Part shown: positions 7,059-59,443 of the stretch, one piece after another
Numbering within the stretch: position 1 is the first letter of the stretch
Layout of the letters: each line of letters begins with the position of its first letter
NCBI RefSeq assembly: GCF_900105725.1
Contig: NZ_FNLM01000034.1
Coordinates: forward strand, 3,968,001-4,032,000
DNA from: Gordonia westfalica
Lineage (GTDB): Bacteria; Actinomycetota; Actinomycetes; Mycobacteriales; Mycobacteriaceae
Length of the DNA stretch: 64,000 nucleotides
Direction of reading: 5' to 3'
Notes under the pieces: model-generated
Database searches by the model: none
What the model was told of the DNA's origin: nothing
The model's input: only the letters and a program-made list of their open reading frames with translations
Program-made: the position numbers and the translations under genes

Positions 7059-10000
7059 CGCGGCCGATCTCGGCCTGGTAGCCACCGGCCGCCGGCGGCA
7101 GCGTCGTGATCCACACCATCACGTAGCGGCTCGGCTGCGGGGAGGCGACCTCGATCGTCGTGGAGTTCTCGCCGACGCGGCCCGCCGCGACCGGCGTGGT
7201 CCGCGCGAAGGCGGGCTTCGCGTTCGGGGAGGTGCGGATCTCCACGTCGAATCCCGGGGTCGGCGACTCGATGGTCACCGACTTCACGGCCTGGTCGCTG
7301 CCGAGGTCGAACATCAGACCCAGACCCTGCTTCAGACCGCCGAAATCGGGCCGTCCCCGATAGTTGTCGGTCTCCCACGGCGGAGCGGCACCCGTGATCA
7401 CGTTGCCGACGTTGGCCGAGTTGTCCGGCGGCTGCGACGAGAAGTCGACGATGGACACCGACTGCAACGGGATGTTCTGTGCCGGCGCGGTCTCGGTCGG
7501 GGCCTTCGCAGCCGGTGCCTGTTCGCCCGGCGTGGCCGGCTCGGTGGTGGTCAGGATCGAGTCGATGTCGCTCGACCCGTCACCGCTTCCGAAGACATTG
7601 GTGGCCCCCACGATCAGCGCGATGACCACGAAGAGCGCGAGCAGTCCGGCGCCGATCAGCAGTGCGAGGTTCTTACGACCCGGCGTGTGCTCGACGCTGC
7701 CGACGCGCGGTGTGGCCGTGACCGGCGGCGGGGCGCCGGCATTGGTGATCGCGGGGAGCATGTCGGTGTTGAGGTCGACGACGGTCGCCTGGTCGAGGAC
7801 GTGCTGGACGGTCGCAGCCGTGCGGATCCCGCGGGAACCGTCGAGCGCACGGGCCGCGACCGCCGAGATCTCGAACGGGACGTCGGGCTTTGCCGCCCGC
7901 GGTTCGATGGGCTGACCGTTCTCACCCGGTGCGGCCACCGGGATACCGCCGATCGGTTCCTTGACGTCGTCGGTGGTGATCAGGCGTGACCCGGTTTCGG
8001 GATCGAGGGTCCACCGGTTCAGCAGCAGTGCGTAGAGCACCGCGCCGAGGCCGCGGACATCGGAGGCCTTGTCGTCACCTGCGAGCGTGCCGGGGAAGGC
8101 GAGAACGGCGTTGCCGTCGTGGCTGATGCGGATGCGATCGGGGTGGTCGATCGACAGGGCGCCACCGGAGCGATGCGCGATCTCGGCGGCCGCGGCCAGT
8201 GAGCGCACGGCGCGGGCCGCGCCGATCGGGGACGGCTGCGAGCGCGCGACGTCGGCCAGTGACGACCCGGGCACCCACTCGGCGACCACGATGCCGCCGG
8301 AGGAACCGCGCACCACGTCGAGCACCCGGGCGACGCCGTCGGAGGTGATCTGCCCGAGCCGCAGGGTGCGTGACAGGACGGCCTGAGGCCCTTGATCGGT
8401 GGTCTTGACCGCCTGCCCGCGTTCGAGCGGCGGCGCGAGCTGGTCGGCGTCGACGAAGGTCAGCGCGACCTCACGGTCGAGGTTGATGTCCTGGGCGCGC
8501 CAGAACTGCAGGCCGCGCGTGCCGCCGTGCTGTTCGAGGAGCCGGTAGCGGCCACCGGCGACCGCGGCGCCCGGGATCAGCCGCGGGCCGCGGGGACGTG
8601 GGGCGGGACTCTCCGGGACGACGGTCGTCGGCGCATCAGCGTTGTCTGCGCCGGGAGTCCGGGCGTGAGCGGGTGTCTGAGAACTCTGCGGTTCGCCGGA
8701 ACGGGATTCGCCGGGACCGGATTCGACGGGCGACCCGGTGGGCGCAGTCGTGTCGATCTCGCTGTCACTCACGCGACGGACTCCTTTCCTCCGGTATCTG
8801 ATGTCGCGCGGAACCGGTGCGCGCTCTGGGATGGGACGCACATCCCGGCCTGCGCCGATCGCGCCGCCGGTGTGTACGGAGTAGGACTGCCACGTCGCGG
8901 TACCCCTGTCGAAGCGGCGCAGCACCTGTACCTGACCAGAGTACGGGAGCGATTCGTCGGCGGAGACGCGCGGAAACTGAACTGTGATCGCCGGGGACTG
9001 TTCGCGTTCGGGCTCGGCCGGCGGGGCGAGCGCCGGGATGAACCGGCCGAGGAGACGGCGTACCGAGTTCCCGATCGCGACGACGTCGGGAACCCTCGCG
9101 GCGGCGAGCCCCGCGTAGGTCACCGCCAGCACGACGGTCGCCGTCAGGACAAGGTAGACCACCGACCCGACCTTGCCGAGCCAGCCGATCATGTGGTCGA
9201 GGCCGGACATCTTCGCGACGGCCCACACGGTGGCCGAGACGCCCAGCGAGACCGCCAGGGTGACCAGCGTGGTGCGGGTGACGTTCGTCAGGCGGGCGCC
9301 GCGCAGGCGGCTGCGGAGCAGGTAGTGGCCGACGATGGCGCCGACCAGGTAGCCGAGCCCGTTGGACAGGGCGAGCCAGCGCACGACGTTGGCCGGGTCA
9401 TCGAAGATCACCGGACCCATGTACGACGAGGTCACCTTCACGACGGTGATGCCGAGCGCGATGAAGGTCGGGGTCCACGCGTCCTCGCGGGCGTAGAACA
9501 CGCGCAGCTGGACCAGCGTCATCGAGTACGGGATCAGCGTGAACGCACCCCAGGCGAGGACCGACCCCAGCTGGGAGGCGTCGGATGCGTCGAACCGGCC
9601 GAAGTTGAACACCGCGATCGCGATCGCCGGTCCGAAGAAGGTCATGAACGACACGACGGGTACCAGCGCGACCATCGTCAGGCGGGTCGCCAGCGAGAGG
9701 TCTTCGACCACGGCCTTCGTGTCGTCGGCGGCTGCGTTGCGGGACAGGCGCGGCATGATCGCGGTCAGGATGGTCACGCCGAGCACGCCGTAGGGCAGCT
9801 GCAGCAACTGCCAGTGGGTGAAGTAGATGCTGACGCCGGATTCCTGGGCCGAGGCGGCGATCCGGTAGGTCGCGATCAGGCCGACCTGCAACAGCGCGAC
9901 GTAGGCGACGATCGCCAGCGCCATGTTGCCGAACTGGCGCAGCCGGGCGTCGATGCCCCATTCCAGCTTCAGACGCACCCCGGCCTTGCGCAGGAAGGGG

Positions 10001-46942: not shown

Positions 46943-47326
46943 GTGACGATCGAGAGTGTCAAGGCGTTGGAGTTCCGCGTGACCAGCGATGGTTTCAAGG
47001 ACCTGCCGAAGATGCCGGAAGCCGAGTACCCGGGCACCGAGGGCTTCATCGGCGACGTCTATGAGAACCCCGACGGCAGCCCGATGTGCAGCGGATACTT
47101 CGAACTCCGCCACACCGACGAACCGCTGTACTACGAGTACGAATACGACGAGATGAAGGTCGTTCTCGAGGGCGAGTTCCTCTTGGAGAACAAGGAAACC
47201 GGGCAGAAGACCGTGGCCAAGGCCAAGGACGCGATCTTCTTCCCCAAGGGATCGAAGATCTACTTCAGCACCCCGGACTATGCGCTCGCCTTCTACACCG
47301 GCCTGCGCGACGCCACTCTCCTCTGA
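46943..47326 (+). CDS. small cupin protein, first gene of the amine-demethylase cluster
   Basis: 127 aa, a single cupin barrel resembling the EutQ-like group: GYFELRHTDEPLYYEYEYDE, then KVVLEGEFLLENKETGQK, KAKDAIFFPKGSKIYFSTPD. The usual two-His metal site is largely replaced by Glu and Tyr, so metal binding is uncertain. The GTG has GGAGGAGC upstream. It lies 9 bp before the DmmA-like gene and must be co-transcribed with the demethylase genes. A role as substrate-binding or chaperone protein for the complex is a guess from context. Confidence 0.8.
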   Translation: MTIESVKALEFRVTSDGFKDLPKMPEAEYPGTEGFIGDVYENPDGSPMCSGYFELRHTDEPLYYEYEYDEMKVVLEGEFLLENKETGQKTVAKAKDAIFFPKGSKIYFSTPDYALAFYTGLRDATLL

Positions 47327-47335
47327 TCGGTCGTC

Positions 47336-47893
47336 ATGTCGCAGATCGCGTACTCCAGCGTGCCGGCGTGGGCGCGACCTGGTGACCTGGTCGAGACGAC
47401 GACACCCACACCGACCGGCAGTTCCTACCTGCTGGTCGGTGTCGGGGACGTCGCCGACGCACTGGGTCGCTGGGAGGCCGACCTCCCGCCATTGGTCACC
47501 ACACGAATCCACGGCAGCGCCGACACGGCCGCCGAACTGCTTGCCGCGGCGCTCGCCGAGGCCACCGTCGGGATCCGGGTCTGGATCGTCGCCGACGCCG
47601 GATCGGCGCTACGGCTGCGCGGCGTCGCAGTGAGCGCAGGCCTCGAAGACGACGAGATCGAGGTCATGACAACGGTTTCCGCCGAACAGGCAGAGGTAGA
47701 TGTGTTCTGCTCGCACTGCCGGACGGTGACCCGCGCCCGAGCGGCGATCGACGACGTCACCCCCTGCGTGGGTTGCCGACGCGACCTGCTCGTCTACTAC
47801 CACGTATCCCGACGAACGGGCCAGTATCTGGGCTTCATGGTCGACGCCGAGACCGCCCGACCCCAGTCCACCGGTGAGGAGGTAGTTCTGTGA
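47336..47893 (+). CDS. DmmA-like protein of the dimethylamine monooxygenase type
   Basis: 185 aa. The N-terminal two thirds form an alpha/beta domain beginning PTGSSYLLVGVGDVADALGR. The C-terminus has a zinc ribbon, VFCSHCRTV near residue 123 and PCVGCRRDL, followed by VYYHVSRRTGQYLGFMVDAE. The ribbon and the HxSRRxGxYxG tail are what I know from DmmA-family subunits of bacterial dimethylamine monooxygenases. Its stop overlaps the reductase GTG (GTGA). It is the stand-alone version of the module that is fused to the catalytic subunit two genes downstream. Confidence 0.75.
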   Translation: MSQIAYSSVPAWARPGDLVETTTPTPTGSSYLLVGVGDVADALGRWEADLPPLVTTRIHGSADTAAELLAAALAEATVGIRVWIVADAGSALRLRGVAVSAGLEDDEIEVMTTVSAEQAEVDVFCSHCRTVTRARAAIDDVTPCVGCRRDLLVYYHVSRRTGQYLGFMVDAETARPQSTGEEVVL

Positions 47894-48900
47894 GCATCAC
47901 CGTCGCAGAGGCGGATTCGGCCGCAAACGGATCTCCGTCGGCAACCCGCGCCGACCGTGCCGCCACGATGCAACTCGTGGTGTCCGCGATCGACACGAGC
48001 GTCACCGGCATCCGCAGCATCACGCTCGCCGACCCGGACGGACGAGCCCTTCCCGGCTTCGTCCCCGGAAGCCATCTGGTGGTGCACGCCGGAGAGTGCA
48101 CCAACGCGTACAGCCTGACCGGCGACGGCAGACATCCCACGCACTATTCGATCTCGGTCCTCAAAGTCGACGACGGCAATGGCGGATCCCGCTGGCTGCA
48201 CGAACAACTCGCCGTCGGAGACCTGCTGACCGTCGGACTTCCCCGCAACGCCTTCGCGCCGGTCGCGCGCGCTCGCAAGCACCTGCTGGTTGCCGGCGGC
48301 ATCGGCATCACGCCCATGGTGTCGCACTTGCGAGCGGCTGTCCGCTGGCGCCGAGACACCCAACTGCTCTATGTCTTCCGTGAAGACGCCGCGGCCCACC
48401 TGGCCGACGTGACCGCTCTCGGACGTGGCCGCGCCGAATTGTTCACCGACCGGGTCTCGTTCACCGCGCGTCTCTTCGAAACCCTGCGCGCTCAACCGAT
48501 CGGCACCCACCTGTACGTGTGCGGGCCGTCGGCCATGATCGACGCGGTCGTCGACGCGGCAGTCGCGGCCGGGTGGCCCGACTCGCGAATCCACTTCGAA
48601 CGGTTCGGCATCGACGCGCTCGACGCAGGCGACCCGTTCCGCGTCGACCTCACCGAATCGGGGCGGAGCATCGACGTCCCCCCGGGGACGAGCATGCTCG
48701 AAGCCCTCGAAGAGGCCGGCGTCGAGGTCCCCAATCTGTGCCGTCAGGGTGTGTGCGGCGAATGCCGCATCCCCCTGGCAACCGGATCACCCATCCACCG
48801 CGACCTCTACCTCAGCGCCGAGGAGAAGGATGCCGGTGACGCCGTCATGCCGTGCGTCTCGCGCGCCGCCGAAGGCTGCATCCTGGAGGTTCCCCTGTGA
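47890..48900 (+). CDS. PDR/VanB-type FMN-NAD(P)H-[2Fe-2S] reductase, first copy
   Basis: 336 aa electron-transfer protein. A flavin-binding domain (PGSHLVVHAGECTNAYSL) is followed by the NAD(P)H domain (VAGGIGITPMVSHL, YVCGPSAMIDAV) and a C-terminal plant-type ferredoxin domain with CRQGVCGEC and a last Cys in VMPCVSRA. This order is typical of phthalate-dioxygenase-reductase relatives that feed oxygenases, including dimethylamine monooxygenase. It overlaps both neighbours by GTGA and should pass electrons to the adjacent heme-type catalytic subunit. Confidence 0.9.
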   Translation: MSITVAEADSAANGSPSATRADRAATMQLVVSAIDTSVTGIRSITLADPDGRALPGFVPGSHLVVHAGECTNAYSLTGDGRHPTHYSISVLKVDDGNGGSRWLHEQLAVGDLLTVGLPRNAFAPVARARKHLLVAGGIGITPMVSHLRAAVRWRRDTQLLYVFREDAAAHLADVTALGRGRAELFTDRVSFTARLFETLRAQPIGTHLYVCGPSAMIDAVVDAAVAAGWPDSRIHFERFGIDALDAGDPFRVDLTESGRSIDVPPGTSMLEALEEAGVEVPNLCRQGVCGECRIPLATGSPIHRDLYLSAEEKDAGDAVMPCVSRAAEGCILEVPL

Positions 48901-50432
48901 CCAGCACCATCCACAACACCACCGCCGCAGCGCAGATCGAGGCCGATCTGGTCGCAGGCTTCCCGTTCCCGTTCCCCGAGGACCGGTATCGCTACAGCAC
49001 CAACGTCGAACCCGCGGAGCAACTCGTCACGACGCCCGCCGGGCAGTGGGGCACCGCAGTCGTCGACATCGACGCCGAGTACCGAGCCGAACTCGATCAG
49101 CGTGCGGCGATCCTCGCCGCCGATCCGACCCGCCACGCGGTCCTCCCGCACATGGTGCCCGCCGCGTGGGACGCGATGTTCACCCTCATGCGCGAACTCG
49201 ACGCCGCCTACCCCGACCAGATGCACCTGAGCTCGACCGGACCAGACGAATGGTTGTGGCGCAACGACATCCTTGGCATCGAGCAGCACTTCCGTTACGG
49301 TGACCCCGACACCCTCCCCGATGAACCACTGCGGTACATCACTTCTCAGGTCCAAGAGGACATCGCTCTCCTCGACCAGCGCAACGATCAGCTCTTCGTC
49401 GACGCCGGTGTCGTCACCTTCGCCGCCGACTGGAGCTTCGGCTTCGATGTCGGCATGAGTTTCCTGGAGATCCACGGGCCGGTGCCGCGGGTGCGCAAGG
49501 AAGGTGTCATCACCCGGGCCCACGAGTTCCTCAAGCGGCTGCAGCCGCACCAGCCGTACCGGCGGACCAACTGGACCCTGACCATCGACCGCCGCCTCGA
49601 CGTCTCGACCGAGATATACCCCGAGTGGGGGCCCGACCGGGAAACCATCCAGCTCGTCGACGACGCCGAGTTCGGACGCCGGGTCCACCTCCGCGTCGAG
49701 GTGCAACACCTCATCCGGCTCCCCGACTCGGGAGCGGTCATGTTCTTGATCCGCACCTACATGCTCCCCCTGGAGCAGCTGGCCACCGTCGATCCGTGGC
49801 GTCGTCGTGCCGCCGAGGTGCTGGCCGAACTGCCCGAGGACATGGCGGATTACAAGGGCATCATCAAGTTCCGGGACCGGGCCGCGCAGTGGCTACGGGC
49901 CGCCGCACCCACACCTCCGGCACCTACCGGTCCGGGTATGCCGGTCTGGCCGGCCACTCCCCCGGCGGTCGACACCACCGGGGCGGCCTTCCTCGTCATC
50001 GCGGTCGGCGACGACGCCGAGACCGCCCACGTGTCGCGGAACTGGGTCGCGGCCGCCGAGGCGGTCGGTGAAACCCGGCTGCTGGTCGTCGACAGCCTCT
50101 CCGACGATCAGGACAGGTCGTCCCTGAACGACGCCCTCGATGCCGCGATCACCGGCACACGGATTCTCGTCACCGGCGGTCAGTACGACGTGATGACCGC
50201 GTTGGCCATGGCACGCGAGGCCGGTGCGGTGCCGGCCGAACTGTTGTCGTACGTCGTCCACACCCGTGACCTACCGCTCTACTGTGCCCACTGCCGCAAC
50301 ACCTTCCGCGTCGAAGGACGCGCCGGCGGGGTCGTCTCGTGCCCCGGTTGCGCTCGGGATCTGGCGATCCACGAGCACCATTCGCCGACGATGGGTAGCT
50401 TCCTCGCATCAGCGGCCGGAGGTGATGCATGA
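48897..50432 (+). CDS. fused heme-dependent oxidative N-demethylase subunit (DUF3445) and DmmA-like module
   Basis: 511 aa in two parts. Residues 1-340 are a DUF3445/HODM-alpha domain: FPFPFPEDRYRYSTNVEPAE, WRNDILGIEQHF, AGVVTFAADWSFGFDVGMSF, EIHGPVPRVR and YRRTNWTLTI. After a Pro-rich linker (about 341-360), residues 361-511 repeat the DmmA-like protein: FLVIAVGDDAETAHVSRNW and a zinc ribbon YCAHCRNTF/CPGCARDL. In known dimethylamine monooxygenases these are, to my knowledge, separate polypeptides, so the fusion is unusual. It would bind heme and oxidatively demethylate a secondary or tertiary amine. The GTG overlaps the reductase stop; the end overlaps the second reductase. Confidence 0.82.
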   Translation: MTSTIHNTTAAAQIEADLVAGFPFPFPEDRYRYSTNVEPAEQLVTTPAGQWGTAVVDIDAEYRAELDQRAAILAADPTRHAVLPHMVPAAWDAMFTLMRELDAAYPDQMHLSSTGPDEWLWRNDILGIEQHFRYGDPDTLPDEPLRYITSQVQEDIALLDQRNDQLFVDAGVVTFAADWSFGFDVGMSFLEIHGPVPRVRKEGVITRAHEFLKRLQPHQPYRRTNWTLTIDRRLDVSTEIYPEWGPDRETIQLVDDAEFGRRVHLRVEVQHLIRLPDSGAVMFLIRTYMLPLEQLATVDPWRRRAAEVLAELPEDMADYKGIIKFRDRAAQWLRAAAPTPPAPTGPGMPVWPATPPAVDTTGAAFLVIAVGDDAETAHVSRNWVAAAEAVGETRLLVVDSLSDDQDRSSLNDALDAAITGTRILVTGGQYDVMTALAMAREAGAVPAELLSYVVHTRDLPLYCAHCRNTFRVEGRAGGVVSCPGCARDLAIHEHHSPTMGSFLASAAGGDA

Positions 50433-51418
50433 CCGCAGCAGCCATCCCCGCGCATCTGCACCCGGGCTATGCGACCGCGCCGCGCCCGATGCGCGTCGTC
50501 ACCGTTCGACGGCTGACCGAGGACATCACCCATTTCCGGTTCGCGCCGCTCAACGACGCCCCGCAGGTCCTGACGCCTTATCAGCCGGGCAGCCATCTCA
50601 TCATCACGGCCGGTGAGCATCGCAACGCCTACTCGCTCGTCGACGACGGCATGTTCCCCGACACCTACGGCATCTCGGTGCTGCGACGCGGCGCCGGTGG
50701 CGGCTCGGACTGGTTGCACGACAACCTCTCCGAGGACAGCGTGATCGAGGTGGAGGGTCCGCGATCGATGTTCGCGCCGATCCTCGACCAGCGCGGCGCT
50801 CTGCTCGTCGCAGGCGGAATCGGTGTCACCCCGGTCCTGTCCCACGCACGGGCTCTGGCGCGCGAGGGGCGTCGTGCTGACATCGTGTACTCGTACCGTC
50901 CCGGCTGCGAAGCCCATCTCGACGATCTCCGTGCGCTCGCCCAGCAGCCGAACATCACCCTGCACGAGGTGTCCGGGGTCGAGGCCACGGCGGAGTTGCT
51001 CGCCGAGAGATTCCGCTCCCAGCCGCTCGGAACGCATGCCTATGCCTGCGGGCCGGCCGCCCTGCTCGAGACCTATACAGAACTCGCGGTCCAGGCCGGG
51101 TGGCCTACGGCGCGAGTACATCTCGAACGATTCTCCGCGCCCGAGCAGGAGCCCGGCGACCCGTTCACCGTGACGCTGTCCTCCACCGGCAGCCAGATCG
51201 ACGTGCCGGCCGGTGTGTCCCTGCTGCAGCGCCTCCTCGACAGCGGCGTCGAAGTGGCCAACCTCTGCCGCCAGGGCGTATGTGGCGAGTGCCGAATCCC
51301 CGTGCGCGGCGGCACCATCGAACATCGAGACCTCGTCCTGTCCGACGAGGAGAAGGCGCTCGGCGACGCGATGCTCTGCTGCGTGTCCCGGGGCGAGGAC
51401 ATCGAGGTGGATCTGTGA
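50429..51418 (+). CDS. PDR/VanB-type reductase, second copy
   Basis: 329 aa with the same domain order as the reductase at 47890: flavin domain (PGSHLIITAGEHRNAYSLVD), NAD(P)H domain (VAGGIGVTPVLSHARALA, YACGPAALLETY) and a C-terminal [2Fe-2S] domain (CRQGVCGECRIPVRGG, last Cys in MLCCVSRG). The two copies are clearly paralogous but diverged, so each may serve a different catalytic subunit. Overlaps on both sides (ATGA, GTGA) keep it in the same translational chain. Confidence 0.9.
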   Translation: MTAAAIPAHLHPGYATAPRPMRVVTVRRLTEDITHFRFAPLNDAPQVLTPYQPGSHLIITAGEHRNAYSLVDDGMFPDTYGISVLRRGAGGGSDWLHDNLSEDSVIEVEGPRSMFAPILDQRGALLVAGGIGVTPVLSHARALAREGRRADIVYSYRPGCEAHLDDLRALAQQPNITLHEVSGVEATAELLAERFRSQPLGTHAYACGPAALLETYTELAVQAGWPTARVHLERFSAPEQEPGDPFTVTLSSTGSQIDVPAGVSLLQRLLDSGVEVANLCRQGVCGECRIPVRGGTIEHRDLVLSDEEKALGDAMLCCVSRGEDIEVDL

Positions 51419-52440
51419 CCACAGAAGCGATCCCGACCGCAGCGACCCAGAACTACCTCACCCAACCGGTGGACCGTCTGTCCAGCCTGCCGTGGCCGTT
51501 CCCGGACGACCTCGAGGAGTTCTCCTACAGCGTCAACGTCGAACCCGCTCGCATCCCCCGTCGCACGCGGGGCGGTGAATGGGGAAGGCACCTGGTCGAT
51601 CTCGGTGGTGCCGAGTACCCCGCGATCATGGCCGACCGCCGCCGAATCCTCGACAACGACCCGTCGCGGGTGCGTGTCCGGGCAGGGATGGAGATCGCCT
51701 GCTGGGACCTGTTGCTCTACTACCTGCGCGACCTGAGCGCCTCCTACCCCGGCCTCATGCACCTCGACGAGCACGGCGACGGCCGTTTCCACTGGCGCAA
51801 CGAGATCCTCGGCACGGACCAGCAATTCGTGCTCGGTGACCCGAGTTCCCTTCCCTACGGGCCCATGGAGTTCCTGGCCCGAGAAGTGCCCGACGATCTC
51901 CTCCTCGTCACCGAACGCGACGGACACCTGTACTTCGACGCCGGTGTCGTCACCTTCGCCGCGGCGTGGTCGGTTTCCTTCGACGTGGGCATGGACATGT
52001 ACGAGATCCACGCGCCGGTTCCGCGCATGCTTCGCGAGGGCATCGTCGCCCGCGCCGAACAGTTCCTGCGCAGGCTACCGGCAGATCAGGTGTACCGCAG
52101 GGTGAACTGGACTCTGTCGGCATCGGATTCAGACAAACTCGACGTGAGTCTGGAGGAGCTGCCGGCGTGGGCGGCCGACGTTCCAGCCATGGTCACCGAC
52201 GGCGATTTCGCCAGGGCACGCCTGCGAATCGAACTGGAACACTTCGTCCGGTTGCCGATGTCGGGTGCCGTGACGTTCAATATCCGGACATTCATGGCCT
52301 CGCTGGAGGACGTGAAGCGAATACCCGAGTGGGCCGATCAGTTGGCCACCGTCATCGAGACACTCGGTGAGGACATCGCCGCCTACAAGGGATTCCTCGA
52401 CTATCGCGACAGAGTCGTCGCATACCTACGCGGTCAATGA
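51415..52440 (+). CDS. heme-dependent oxidative N-demethylase subunit (DUF3445), stand-alone copy
   Basis: 341 aa, a single DUF3445/HODM-alpha domain: LPWPFPDDLEEFSYSVNVEP, WRNEILGTDQQF, AGVVTFAAAWSVSFDVGMDM, EIHAPVPRMLREG and YRRVNWTLSASDS. It aligns along its whole length with the first half of the fused protein at 48897 but has no DmmA-like extension. The GTG overlaps the second reductase stop. It would be the catalytic subunit of a second demethylase, sharing or competing for the DmmA-like protein. The product is formaldehyde plus the demethylated amine, if it follows the family chemistry. Confidence 0.85.
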   Translation: MTTEAIPTAATQNYLTQPVDRLSSLPWPFPDDLEEFSYSVNVEPARIPRRTRGGEWGRHLVDLGGAEYPAIMADRRRILDNDPSRVRVRAGMEIACWDLLLYYLRDLSASYPGLMHLDEHGDGRFHWRNEILGTDQQFVLGDPSSLPYGPMEFLAREVPDDLLLVTERDGHLYFDAGVVTFAAAWSVSFDVGMDMYEIHAPVPRMLREGIVARAEQFLRRLPADQVYRRVNWTLSASDSDKLDVSLEELPAWAADVPAMVTDGDFARARLRIELEHFVRLPMSGAVTFNIRTFMASLEDVKRIPEWADQLATVIETLGEDIAAYKGFLDYRDRVVAYLRGQ

Positions 52441-55509: not shown

Positions 55510-56405
55510 ATGTGCGGAATCGTCGGGTTGCACCTGCGTAATCCGGAACTCCATCCCCGACTCGGTGCGATGCTCGCCGAGATGCTCGGTGAGATGCAGG
55601 ATCGTGGCGCCGACTCGGCCGGCATCGCCGTATACGGAAACCCGAGTGGGCTCCTCCCGGCCACGGTTGTGTCTCGCTGCTCGAGCTCGAGGTTCTGCCG
55701 GACGAGGTCTCGGCGACGCTCGGTGCGGCGCTCGGCGTTTCAGTTGCGGCAAAGCTCATCGACGACACGCTGGTCGCGTCCGCACCGGTGCCCGCGGAGG
55801 ATCTCCTCGGTGCCGCCCGGGCCGCCTACCCCGAGGCGCTGGTCGCCGGATTCGGCGCCGACCTCACCGTCCTCAAGGGCGTCGGCGCTCCCCGCGATCT
55901 CGCGGAATCCTGGGGCCTGGCAAACGCCTCCGGCTGGCAGGGCGTCGGCCACACCCGCATGGCCACCGAGTCGGCCGTGACTCCGTCGGGTGCGCATCCG
56001 TACGCGGTGGGACCTGAGCAGTGTCTGGTGCACAACGGATCGTTCTCGAACCACGCCACGATCCGTCGCGAACTCCGTGCCGAGGGAGTCGAATTCGACA
56101 GCGAGAACGACACCGAGGTCGGTGCCCGCTTCGTCGCCCACCAGCTCGCCGCAGGTAAGGATGTCGAAACTGCACTCAAAGAGGTGTGCGCCACCTTCGA
56201 CGGTTTCTACACCCTGGTGGTCTCCAACCACGACTCCTTCGCCGTCGTCCGCGACGCCATCGCCTGCAAGCCCGCGGTGATCGCCGAGACCGACGACTGG
56301 GTCGCGATCGCCAGCGAGTACCGCGCCCTGGCCAAGCTTCCCGGCGTCGAGAACGCCCGCATCTGGGAGCCCGAGCCCGAGGTGGTCTACGCATGGACGC
56401 GGTGA
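55510..56405 (+). pseudogene. class II glutamine amidotransferase (MgsA/GlxB-like), frameshifted
   Basis: The N-terminal nucleophile starts MCGIVGLHLRNPELHPRLGA and continues to DSAGIAVYGNP in one frame. From about 55644 the protein continues in the -1 frame with EWAPPGHGCVSLLELE and on to HTRMATESAVTP and VHNGSFSNHATIRREL, ending at 56405. Joined, it would be a normal length of about 298 aa. The switch falls at AAACCCG (55638-55644): one missing C in a short C run explains it, and the same heptamer also has the form X XXY YYZ of a -1 slippery site. So this is a real mutation, a sequence error or, less likely, programmed frameshifting. It would supply ammonia to the synthase complex. Confidence 0.85.
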
Positions 56406-58704: not shown

Positions 58705-58753
58705 GTGGTGAAGTTGGTCGACGGGGTAACCCAGGAGAGGGCGCTGAATCGTG

Positions 58754-58789
58754 TGTCAACTGACAGTGAACGACCTTGCTCACTATGCT
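58754..58789 (+). promoter_or_regulatory. promoter with palindrome for the XRE-cupin regulator
   Basis: CTGACA (58760-58765), an 18-bp spacer and TATGCT (58784-58789) place the transcript start near the GTG at 58796, so the mRNA is probably leaderless. TGTCAACTGACA (58754-58765), an inverted repeat with 5-bp arms, covers the -35 and could be an autoregulatory site. Confidence 0.55.
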
Positions 58790-58795
58790 GGCCAG

Positions 58796-59443
58796 GTGAC
58801 CGATGATCCCCTGATCCGGAACCAGTCCGGTATTGCACGGGAACGCCCCGTCGACCAGTCGGTCGAGGAACTCGAGCTCGAGACCGCGATCGCGCACAAC
58901 GTGCGGCGGTTGCGTCGTCAGCAGGGACTGTCGGTGGGCGACATGGCGACCCGCGTCGGCATCTCCAAGGCGATGCTGTCGAAGATCGAGAACGCACAGA
59001 CCTCGTGCAGCCTCAGTACCCTCGCCCGCCTGGCCAACGGTTTCGACGTCTCGGTGACGTCGTTGTTCCGCGGAGCGGAGATGGAGCGGTCAGCTGTCTT
59101 CGTGAAGGCGGGGGAGGGCAACGAGATCGTCCGTGAGGGCTCCCGCGAAGGACACGAGTATGAGCTTCTCGGATCGCTTCGCGGCGAACACAAACGGCTC
59201 GAATGTCTGCTCGTGACCCTCACCGAGAAGTCGGTGACCCAGCCGCTGTTCCAGCACGCCGGTACCGAATTCCTGTATGTGCTCGAGGGCGTGATGGACT
59301 ACGCGCACAGCCGCTCGGTGTACCGGATGCACCCGGGCGACGCTCTTCAGCTCGACGGTGAAGGAGCGCACGGGCCGGTCGAGCTGGTCGAACTACCCGT
59401 GCGATTCCTGTCGGTCATCGCGTTCCCCGATTCCGCGGTCTGA
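58796..59443 (+). CDS. XRE-family regulator with C-terminal cupin domain
   Basis: 215 aa. The helix-turn-helix is at about residues 28-85 (NVRRLRRQQGLSVGDMATRV, GISKAMLSKIENAQTSCSLS), and a cupin sensor domain fills the C-terminal half (FQHAGTEFLYVLEGVMDY, HPGDALQLDGEGAHGPVEL). The GTG at 58796 is preferred to GTG 58751, because the promoter elements lie between them. Regulators of this type follow the matching amt/GS/synthase genes in M. smegmatis. It probably senses an amine or a nitrogen metabolite and controls this cluster. Confidence 0.88.
   Translation: MTDDPLIRNQSGIARERPVDQSVEELELETAIAHNVRRLRRQQGLSVGDMATRVGISKAMLSKIENAQTSCSLSTLARLANGFDVSVTSLFRGAEMERSAVFVKAGEGNEIVREGSREGHEYELLGSLRGEHKRLECLLVTLTEKSVTQPLFQHAGTEFLYVLEGVMDYAHSRSVYRMHPGDALQLDGEGAHGPVELVELPVRFLSVIAFPDSAV

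Follow-up and report, generated by a model that had tools for sequence, protein, structure and literature searches.

A stretch of 64,000 nucleotides from Gordonia westfalica (contig NZ_FNLM01000034.1, positions 3,968,001 to 4,032,000 of the forward strand; hereafter the window) carries two consecutive sets of genes of the dimethylamine monooxygenase (DmmABC) type, in which the haem subunit of the first set and the DmmA-family protein of the second are encoded as one polypeptide. The gene order is A1-B1-C1::A2-B2-C2, each set comprising adjacent genes for a DmmA, a reductase and a haem subunit; the dmmA/B/C names were assigned from gene order and the NCBIfam name. The core genes are:

47336..47893, + strand: DmmA1 (gamma1), free DmmA-family protein with NAD-domain-like fold and zinc ribbon; NF041259, 110.9 bits
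47890..48900, + strand: DmmB1 (beta1), flavin/NAD/2Fe-2S reductase; Fer2 and PF22290 above cut-off
48897..50432, + strand: DmmC1::DmmA2 fusion, with haem N-demethylase domain (residues ~1-338), linker (~339-350) and DmmA2 domain (~351-511)
50429..51418, + strand: DmmB2 (beta2), second reductase; Fer2 and PF22290 above cut-off
51415..52440, + strand: DmmC2 (alpha2), second, diverged HODM-alpha protein; HODM_asu-like, 200.5 bits (scan from 51409)

Overlaps of 4 bases are found at all four gene junctions from DmmA1 to DmmC2 (GTGA at DmmA1/DmmB1 and at DmmB1/fusion, ATGA at fusion/DmmB2, and the GTG of DmmC2 at 51415 overlapping the DmmB2 stop), and the fifth junction, C1/A2, is the fusion itself.

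The fusion is a single unbroken frame of 511 aa with a GTG start, and the HODM-alpha and DmmA-like domain content proposed in a first-pass annotation was borne out by matches above cut-off: HODM_asu-like (PF11927) on residues 54-328 with 231.2 bits (Pfam cut-off 25), DmmA-like_C on residues 461-503 with 35 bits (Pfam cut-off 27.4) and the NCBIfam DmmA family NF041259 on residues 410-508 with 98.7 bits (cut-off 60). The top PDB match of the haem part was 5lte, of the DmmC/HODM-alpha type, whose fold it shares, and C1 of the window carries the 5lte residue at 17/17 tracked positions. In the DmmA2 half the cysteines of the putative zinc ribbon are complete (CxHC-x15-CxxC), the metal itself being predicted from sequence. 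The CxxC...CxxC ribbon previously claimed for this half is thus present, with the same spacing of 15 in the fused and the free protein, and the spacing is kept in 20/20 fused proteins (the window and 19 loci). The free DmmA-like gene noted two genes upstream of the fusion (47336-47893) was likewise confirmed, and the fused C-terminus matches its product in fold as well as in ribbon spacing: profile-profile comparison of gamma1 (free) with gamma2 (fused-type) gave a probability of 99.9 (E 9.5e-34, 143 columns), and the predicted element order is identical (b-a-b-a-b-a-b, then the ribbon strands). Across the wider gamma set, C.HC(13-17)C..C is found in 120/125 proteins, the remaining five still having two CxxC motifs. 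Profile matches of DmmA to the NAD domain of the reductase were weak (gamma1, probability 68, E 4.8e-5, 59 columns; gamma2, probability 5), and homology to that domain would consequently rest on the predicted fold. Foldseek alone returned no match for DmmA1 at E <=0.001, and where the DmmA profile hit eS27, the match was limited to the ribbon.

A search with the fusion gave 420 stretches fitting a pattern, of which 368 were confirmed; locus counts refer to the best 80 of these 368. They comprise 19 fused loci in the order 1-2, 9 unfused loci in the same order, 9 unfused loci in the order 2-1 and 43 loci with set 1 only. The last designation applies to the locus rather than the genome: 8/43 such loci are shorter than 14 kb, L055 has a set 2 ~23 kb off, and L076 and L093 share genomes with the tandems L057 and L054. 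All 19 fused named loci are from Gordonia, while 59 of the 61 unfused loci lie outside the genus, the other two being G. jinhuaensis (L058) and Gordonia 'Campus' (L051). Subunit trees, from which duplicates and rows with >35% gaps had been dropped (alpha 131 to 129, gamma 125 to 123, beta 127 to 125), placed type 2 apart from type 1 for 42/42 labelled alpha rows (support 1.0), 40/40 beta rows (0.987) and 42/43 gamma rows (0.998). The exception among the gamma rows, L107, is a single-set DmmA of divergent sequence, for which gamma2 is the best, weak match. The free and the fused DmmA of the window share one strong pairwise match, with 16/47 residues identical. As DmmA1 and DmmA2 stand on separate sides of the gamma tree, they are paralogues of different sets sharing one fold, and not, as had been proposed, one subunit made in both fused and free form. 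The fusion accordingly joins C1 to the A2 of the next set; a fusion to its own-set partner is disfavoured by trees and gene content. In Nocardioides and relatives (L072, L074, L079, L087, L090, L091, L094, L095, L069) the sets lie adjacent and unfused in 2-1 order. Two further loci, L178 and L179, come from a different family of the same order and hold lone HODM-alpha genes; their 11-12 kb contain no match to DmmA or the reductase.

A link between DmmA2 and C2 is indicated by three natural cases. The genome G768 encodes a cupin and a reductase together with a DmmA of gamma2 type and a haem protein of alpha2 type, and has a single alpha match genome-wide. On plasmid NZ_CP097321.1, A2-B2-C2 stands apart from A1-B1-C1. 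In Gordonia 'Campus', A1-B1-C1 is followed by sequence alignable with the 3' end of the window C2 (score 41; best of 500 shuffles 18), and because this C2 remnant lies behind C1, A2-B2-C2 was most likely lost by deletion while set 1 was retained. C1 is accompanied by its own DmmA1 in every listed named locus with a complete upstream part. The order in G697 is A1-B1-C1-A2-C2, without B2, which reads as if a single reductase could serve both sets. Since the DmmA half of the fusion is of the kind paired with the reductase and haem subunit encoded after it, the earlier suggestion that the fusion demonstrates joint action of its two parts is weakened; the fixed stoichiometry suggested with it holds as 1:1 for C1 and A2 only, free DmmA1 being tied to nothing. 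The second reductase of NZ_CP097321.1 (L184, about 7468-8461) is in two frames. On the same plasmid the second haem gene is absent from the listed annotation, and the surroundings contain insertion sequence (IS) elements as well as a group II intron.

DmmA-family genes occur in 33 of 59 same-genus genomes and are missing from the other 26; many of these genomes coincide with the assemblies that gave the named loci. Two DmmA genes above cut-off were found in 31/33, and in 31/31 the second sits in a frame of at least 529 aa, equal in length to the one holding the first HODM-alpha match. The genomes with a single DmmA are G012 and G032, the set of the latter being divergent (59% to C1). In a class sample of 394 genomes, scanned for the best 12 candidates per genome, 23 were above the DmmA cut-off (2 same-genus), and the other 21 gave no above-cut-off match in a frame >332 aa. 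Likewise, the fusion was found in 0 of the 59 non-Gordonia loci. Plasmid records matching the fusion numbered 149, and the single joined place covering at least 80% of it is probably the A2...C2 stretch on NZ_CP097321.1, which is unfused; DmmA2 matches occurred in this record and two others, the unfused state being seen for NZ_CP097321.1 among these. Phages gave no match to the fusion. The fusion is thus common within Gordonia, one half of what had been named as grounds for dismissing it; the other half, an earlier description, was not found in the literature searched.

In 9/9 unfused tandems with the sets in 1-2 order, the C1 stop codon (TGA) overlaps the presumed ATG or GTG of the DmmA2 frame, out of frame, so that the merger required a change of frame. 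Judging from these sequences, the fusion is an in-frame merger of neighbouring genes. All 20 fused proteins keep a (M/L/V)PxWP motif, which is present also in most unfused DmmA2 proteins of order-1-2 tandems (not L053 and L058). The distance from the end of the alpha domain to this motif ranges from 9 to 32 residues across the 20 proteins; the linkers are short, often Pro/Ala-rich, and not fixed in sequence. A concatenated tree of 40 two-set loci requires 2 fused/free changes. In the best tree the long-branched, unfused G. jinhuaensis falls inside the fused rows, and a tree with the fused rows as a single clade was not rejected (approximately unbiased test, p 0.0914); a reversal in G. jinhuaensis and a misplaced branch are both possible.

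The second haem subunit appears to have been changed rather than abandoned. C2-type proteins retain H193, R222, R223, N225, W226, R266, E268 and R274 in 42/42, and R286 in 41. Relative to 5lte they carry F31, P153 and E270 in 42/42, E or D at position 161 in 42, and G85 and E151 in 38, the four copies with H85 and Q151 being those of the distant G697, G768, G782 and G794. Of the six subunits, C2 diverges least among the fused operons (mean distance 0.224). This low divergence, together with the conserved substitutions, makes C2 look like a changed but useful enzyme, not a relic.

The core genes are flanked by the following:

46943..47326, + strand: EutQ/cupin-like protein, first of the cluster; Pfam EutQ, 49.8 bits
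52503..53864, + strand: ammonium transporter; TIGR00836, 393.7 bits
54080..55441, + strand: type III glutamate-ammonia ligase; TIGR03105, 602.8 bits (cut-off 469.6)

A cupin homologue lies upstream of the dmm genes in most relatives displayed. The ligase is the sole TIGR03105 match above cut-off in the genome, and its context, with glutamate-synthase-like genes on its 3' side, suggests that its product is gamma-glutamylmethylamide synthetase (gmaS). A glutamine-amidotransferase-like gene (55510-56405, + strand), mgsA-like by context, is split over two frames in the window and is one frame in four Gordonia relatives (L032-L035), so that the split is either a sequencing error or a real loss. Straight after the glutamate-synthase-like genes, 58751-59443 (+ strand) encodes a helix-turn-helix (HTH) and cupin regulator, PuuR-like below cut-off, which is a candidate regulator of the cluster. 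N-methylglutamate dehydrogenase has a GcvT-bearing subunit; neither such a subunit nor a DmmD fold-alike was found beside gmaS/mgs. The promoter scan returned no promoter-like site, and terminator-like sites numbered 2 versus 1.6 in shuffles.

Built on the observed architecture, set paralogy, ancestral overlap and spread, the reading that we favour, at a probability of about 0.5, is that the fusion is an inter-set chimera tethering a canonical dimethylamine monooxygenase to a diverged sister enzyme. The ancestral operon would have held two dmmABC-type sets in tandem, with the end of C1 and the start of A2 overlapping by a few bases out of frame; in the Gordonia line these would have become one frame in which the two domains persist, joined by a short linker. 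The C1 half would be the catalytic PAS-haem domain of the canonical enzyme. NAD(P)H electrons would pass from the B1 flavin via 2Fe-2S to the C1 haem, and C1 would N-demethylate dimethylamine to methylamine for the adjoining gmaS/N-methylglutamate-type genes. The A2 half, an NAD-domain-like module with a zinc ribbon, would have B2 and C2 as its own-set partners, so that the C1-A2 chain would hold both sister enzymes in one assembly with C1:A2 at 1:1. An extension of this reading, in which the assembly is one bifunctional supercomplex of two PAS-haem N-demethylases and the C2 substitutions give another N-methylated substrate, allowing successive demethylations (e.g. of a bulkier amine and then dimethylamine), is speculative and rather unlikely. 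Several observations weigh against the tether. The structure model of the fusion (pTM 0.65) has a low-confidence linker and no confident domain placement; 'Campus' survives without set 2, and G. jinhuaensis carries the tandem unfused. The two sets of NZ_CP097321.1 are ~23 kb apart, and the G768 reductase is closer to B1 than to B2 (49 vs 47%), from which it follows that the sets do not always travel whole. Distance covariation, computed for 39 of the 40 two-set loci (those with all six subunits) and not used as proof, was strongest for alpha1-alpha2 (partial r 0.53, with no significance figure) and fell to 0.13 for this pair among 20 fused loci. Finally, GCV_T (PF01571) has 2 matches genome-wide and 0 in the window, no DmmD/GcvT gene lying beside dmmABC.

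The main rival is a neutral merger, in which an indel once fused overlapping, probably co-translated neighbours into two independent domains that were then kept by descent. The out-of-frame overlap in all nine unfused same-order tandems, the unconstrained linker with its low confidence in the model, and the existence of G. jinhuaensis and of the set-1-only 'Campus' all agree with it, and the fused state of 31/31 two-set genomes of the genus sample and the intact ribbon spacing in 20/20 fused DmmA2 domains, which speak against it, are also expected from plain descent; we regard this explanation as possible, though less probable than the tether. The view of the first-pass annotation, that C1 works with A2 as its DmmA and that their ratio is fixed by the fusion, draws on their covalent link and on the need for DmmA during growth of Paracoccus aminophilus on dimethylamine (PMC4543880). 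It appears unlikely: C1 already has its own DmmA1 in the listed named loci with a complete upstream part, is found without A2 both in 'Campus' and among relatives having a single set, and A2-type proteins occur with C2-type proteins lacking C1 (G768) or far from C1 (NZ_CP097321.1). A sequencing join, or a hidden internal start that also yields free DmmA2, is very improbable. The window linker does end with a Met (GPGMPVWP), but the 20 fused proteins vary between M, L and V at that position, which disfavours an internal start, and the same frame recurs in 19 named Gordonia loci and 31 same-genus genomes (some being the same assemblies).

The chimera favoured here links two sister sets covalently and has been retained over much of the genus Gordonia. 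DmmA is required for dimethylamine growth in Paracoccus (PMC4543880), and no account of its role was met in the literature examined. Its fold, NAD-domain-like with a zinc ribbon, gives a concrete hypothesis, namely docking or control of electron entry, and the arrangements that occur in nature (a lone set 1, a pair of set-2 type by itself, tandems left unfused in either order and a one-reductase tandem) form a panel for probing DmmA and a possible joint complex.

The component families are already known; the literature searched gave no description of the fusion of C1 to A2, of its distribution in Gordonia or of the two-set context, and in the two papers naming the enzyme together with both 'fused' and 'fusion' these words concern methods. 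Ruegeria (PMC5520151) and Paracoccus (PMC4543880) encode DmmA, DmmB and DmmC by separate genes, as the first-pass annotation had held for known dimethylamine monooxygenases; dmmC of Ruegeria is presumably the haem subunit, a Paracoccus aminophilus dmmA mutant indicates that DmmA is required for growth on dimethylamine (PMC4543880), and DmmABC is active in E. coli without DmmD (PMC5520151). The window resembles DmmABC(D) of Ruegeria pomeroyi and Paracoccus aminophilus in encoding a DmmA-family protein, a reductase and a haem subunit in the same order with methylamine-pathway genes alongside. It differs in having two tandem sets, in the fusion, by which C1 and A2 form one frame instead of the separate polypeptides of DmmABC, and in holding no gene for the GcvT-domain (folate) subunit that marks DmmDABC and four-subunit HODM. 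Compared with FNR-type reductases (e.g. 7c3b, 2pia, NqrF), DmmA is without the flavin domain and has a trailing zinc ribbon. Relative to the alpha subunit of the haem-dependent oxidative N-demethylase (HODM) of Pseudomonas mendocina (5lte/5lth), the fusion adds a DmmA2 domain, and C2 differs at several of the tracked positions.
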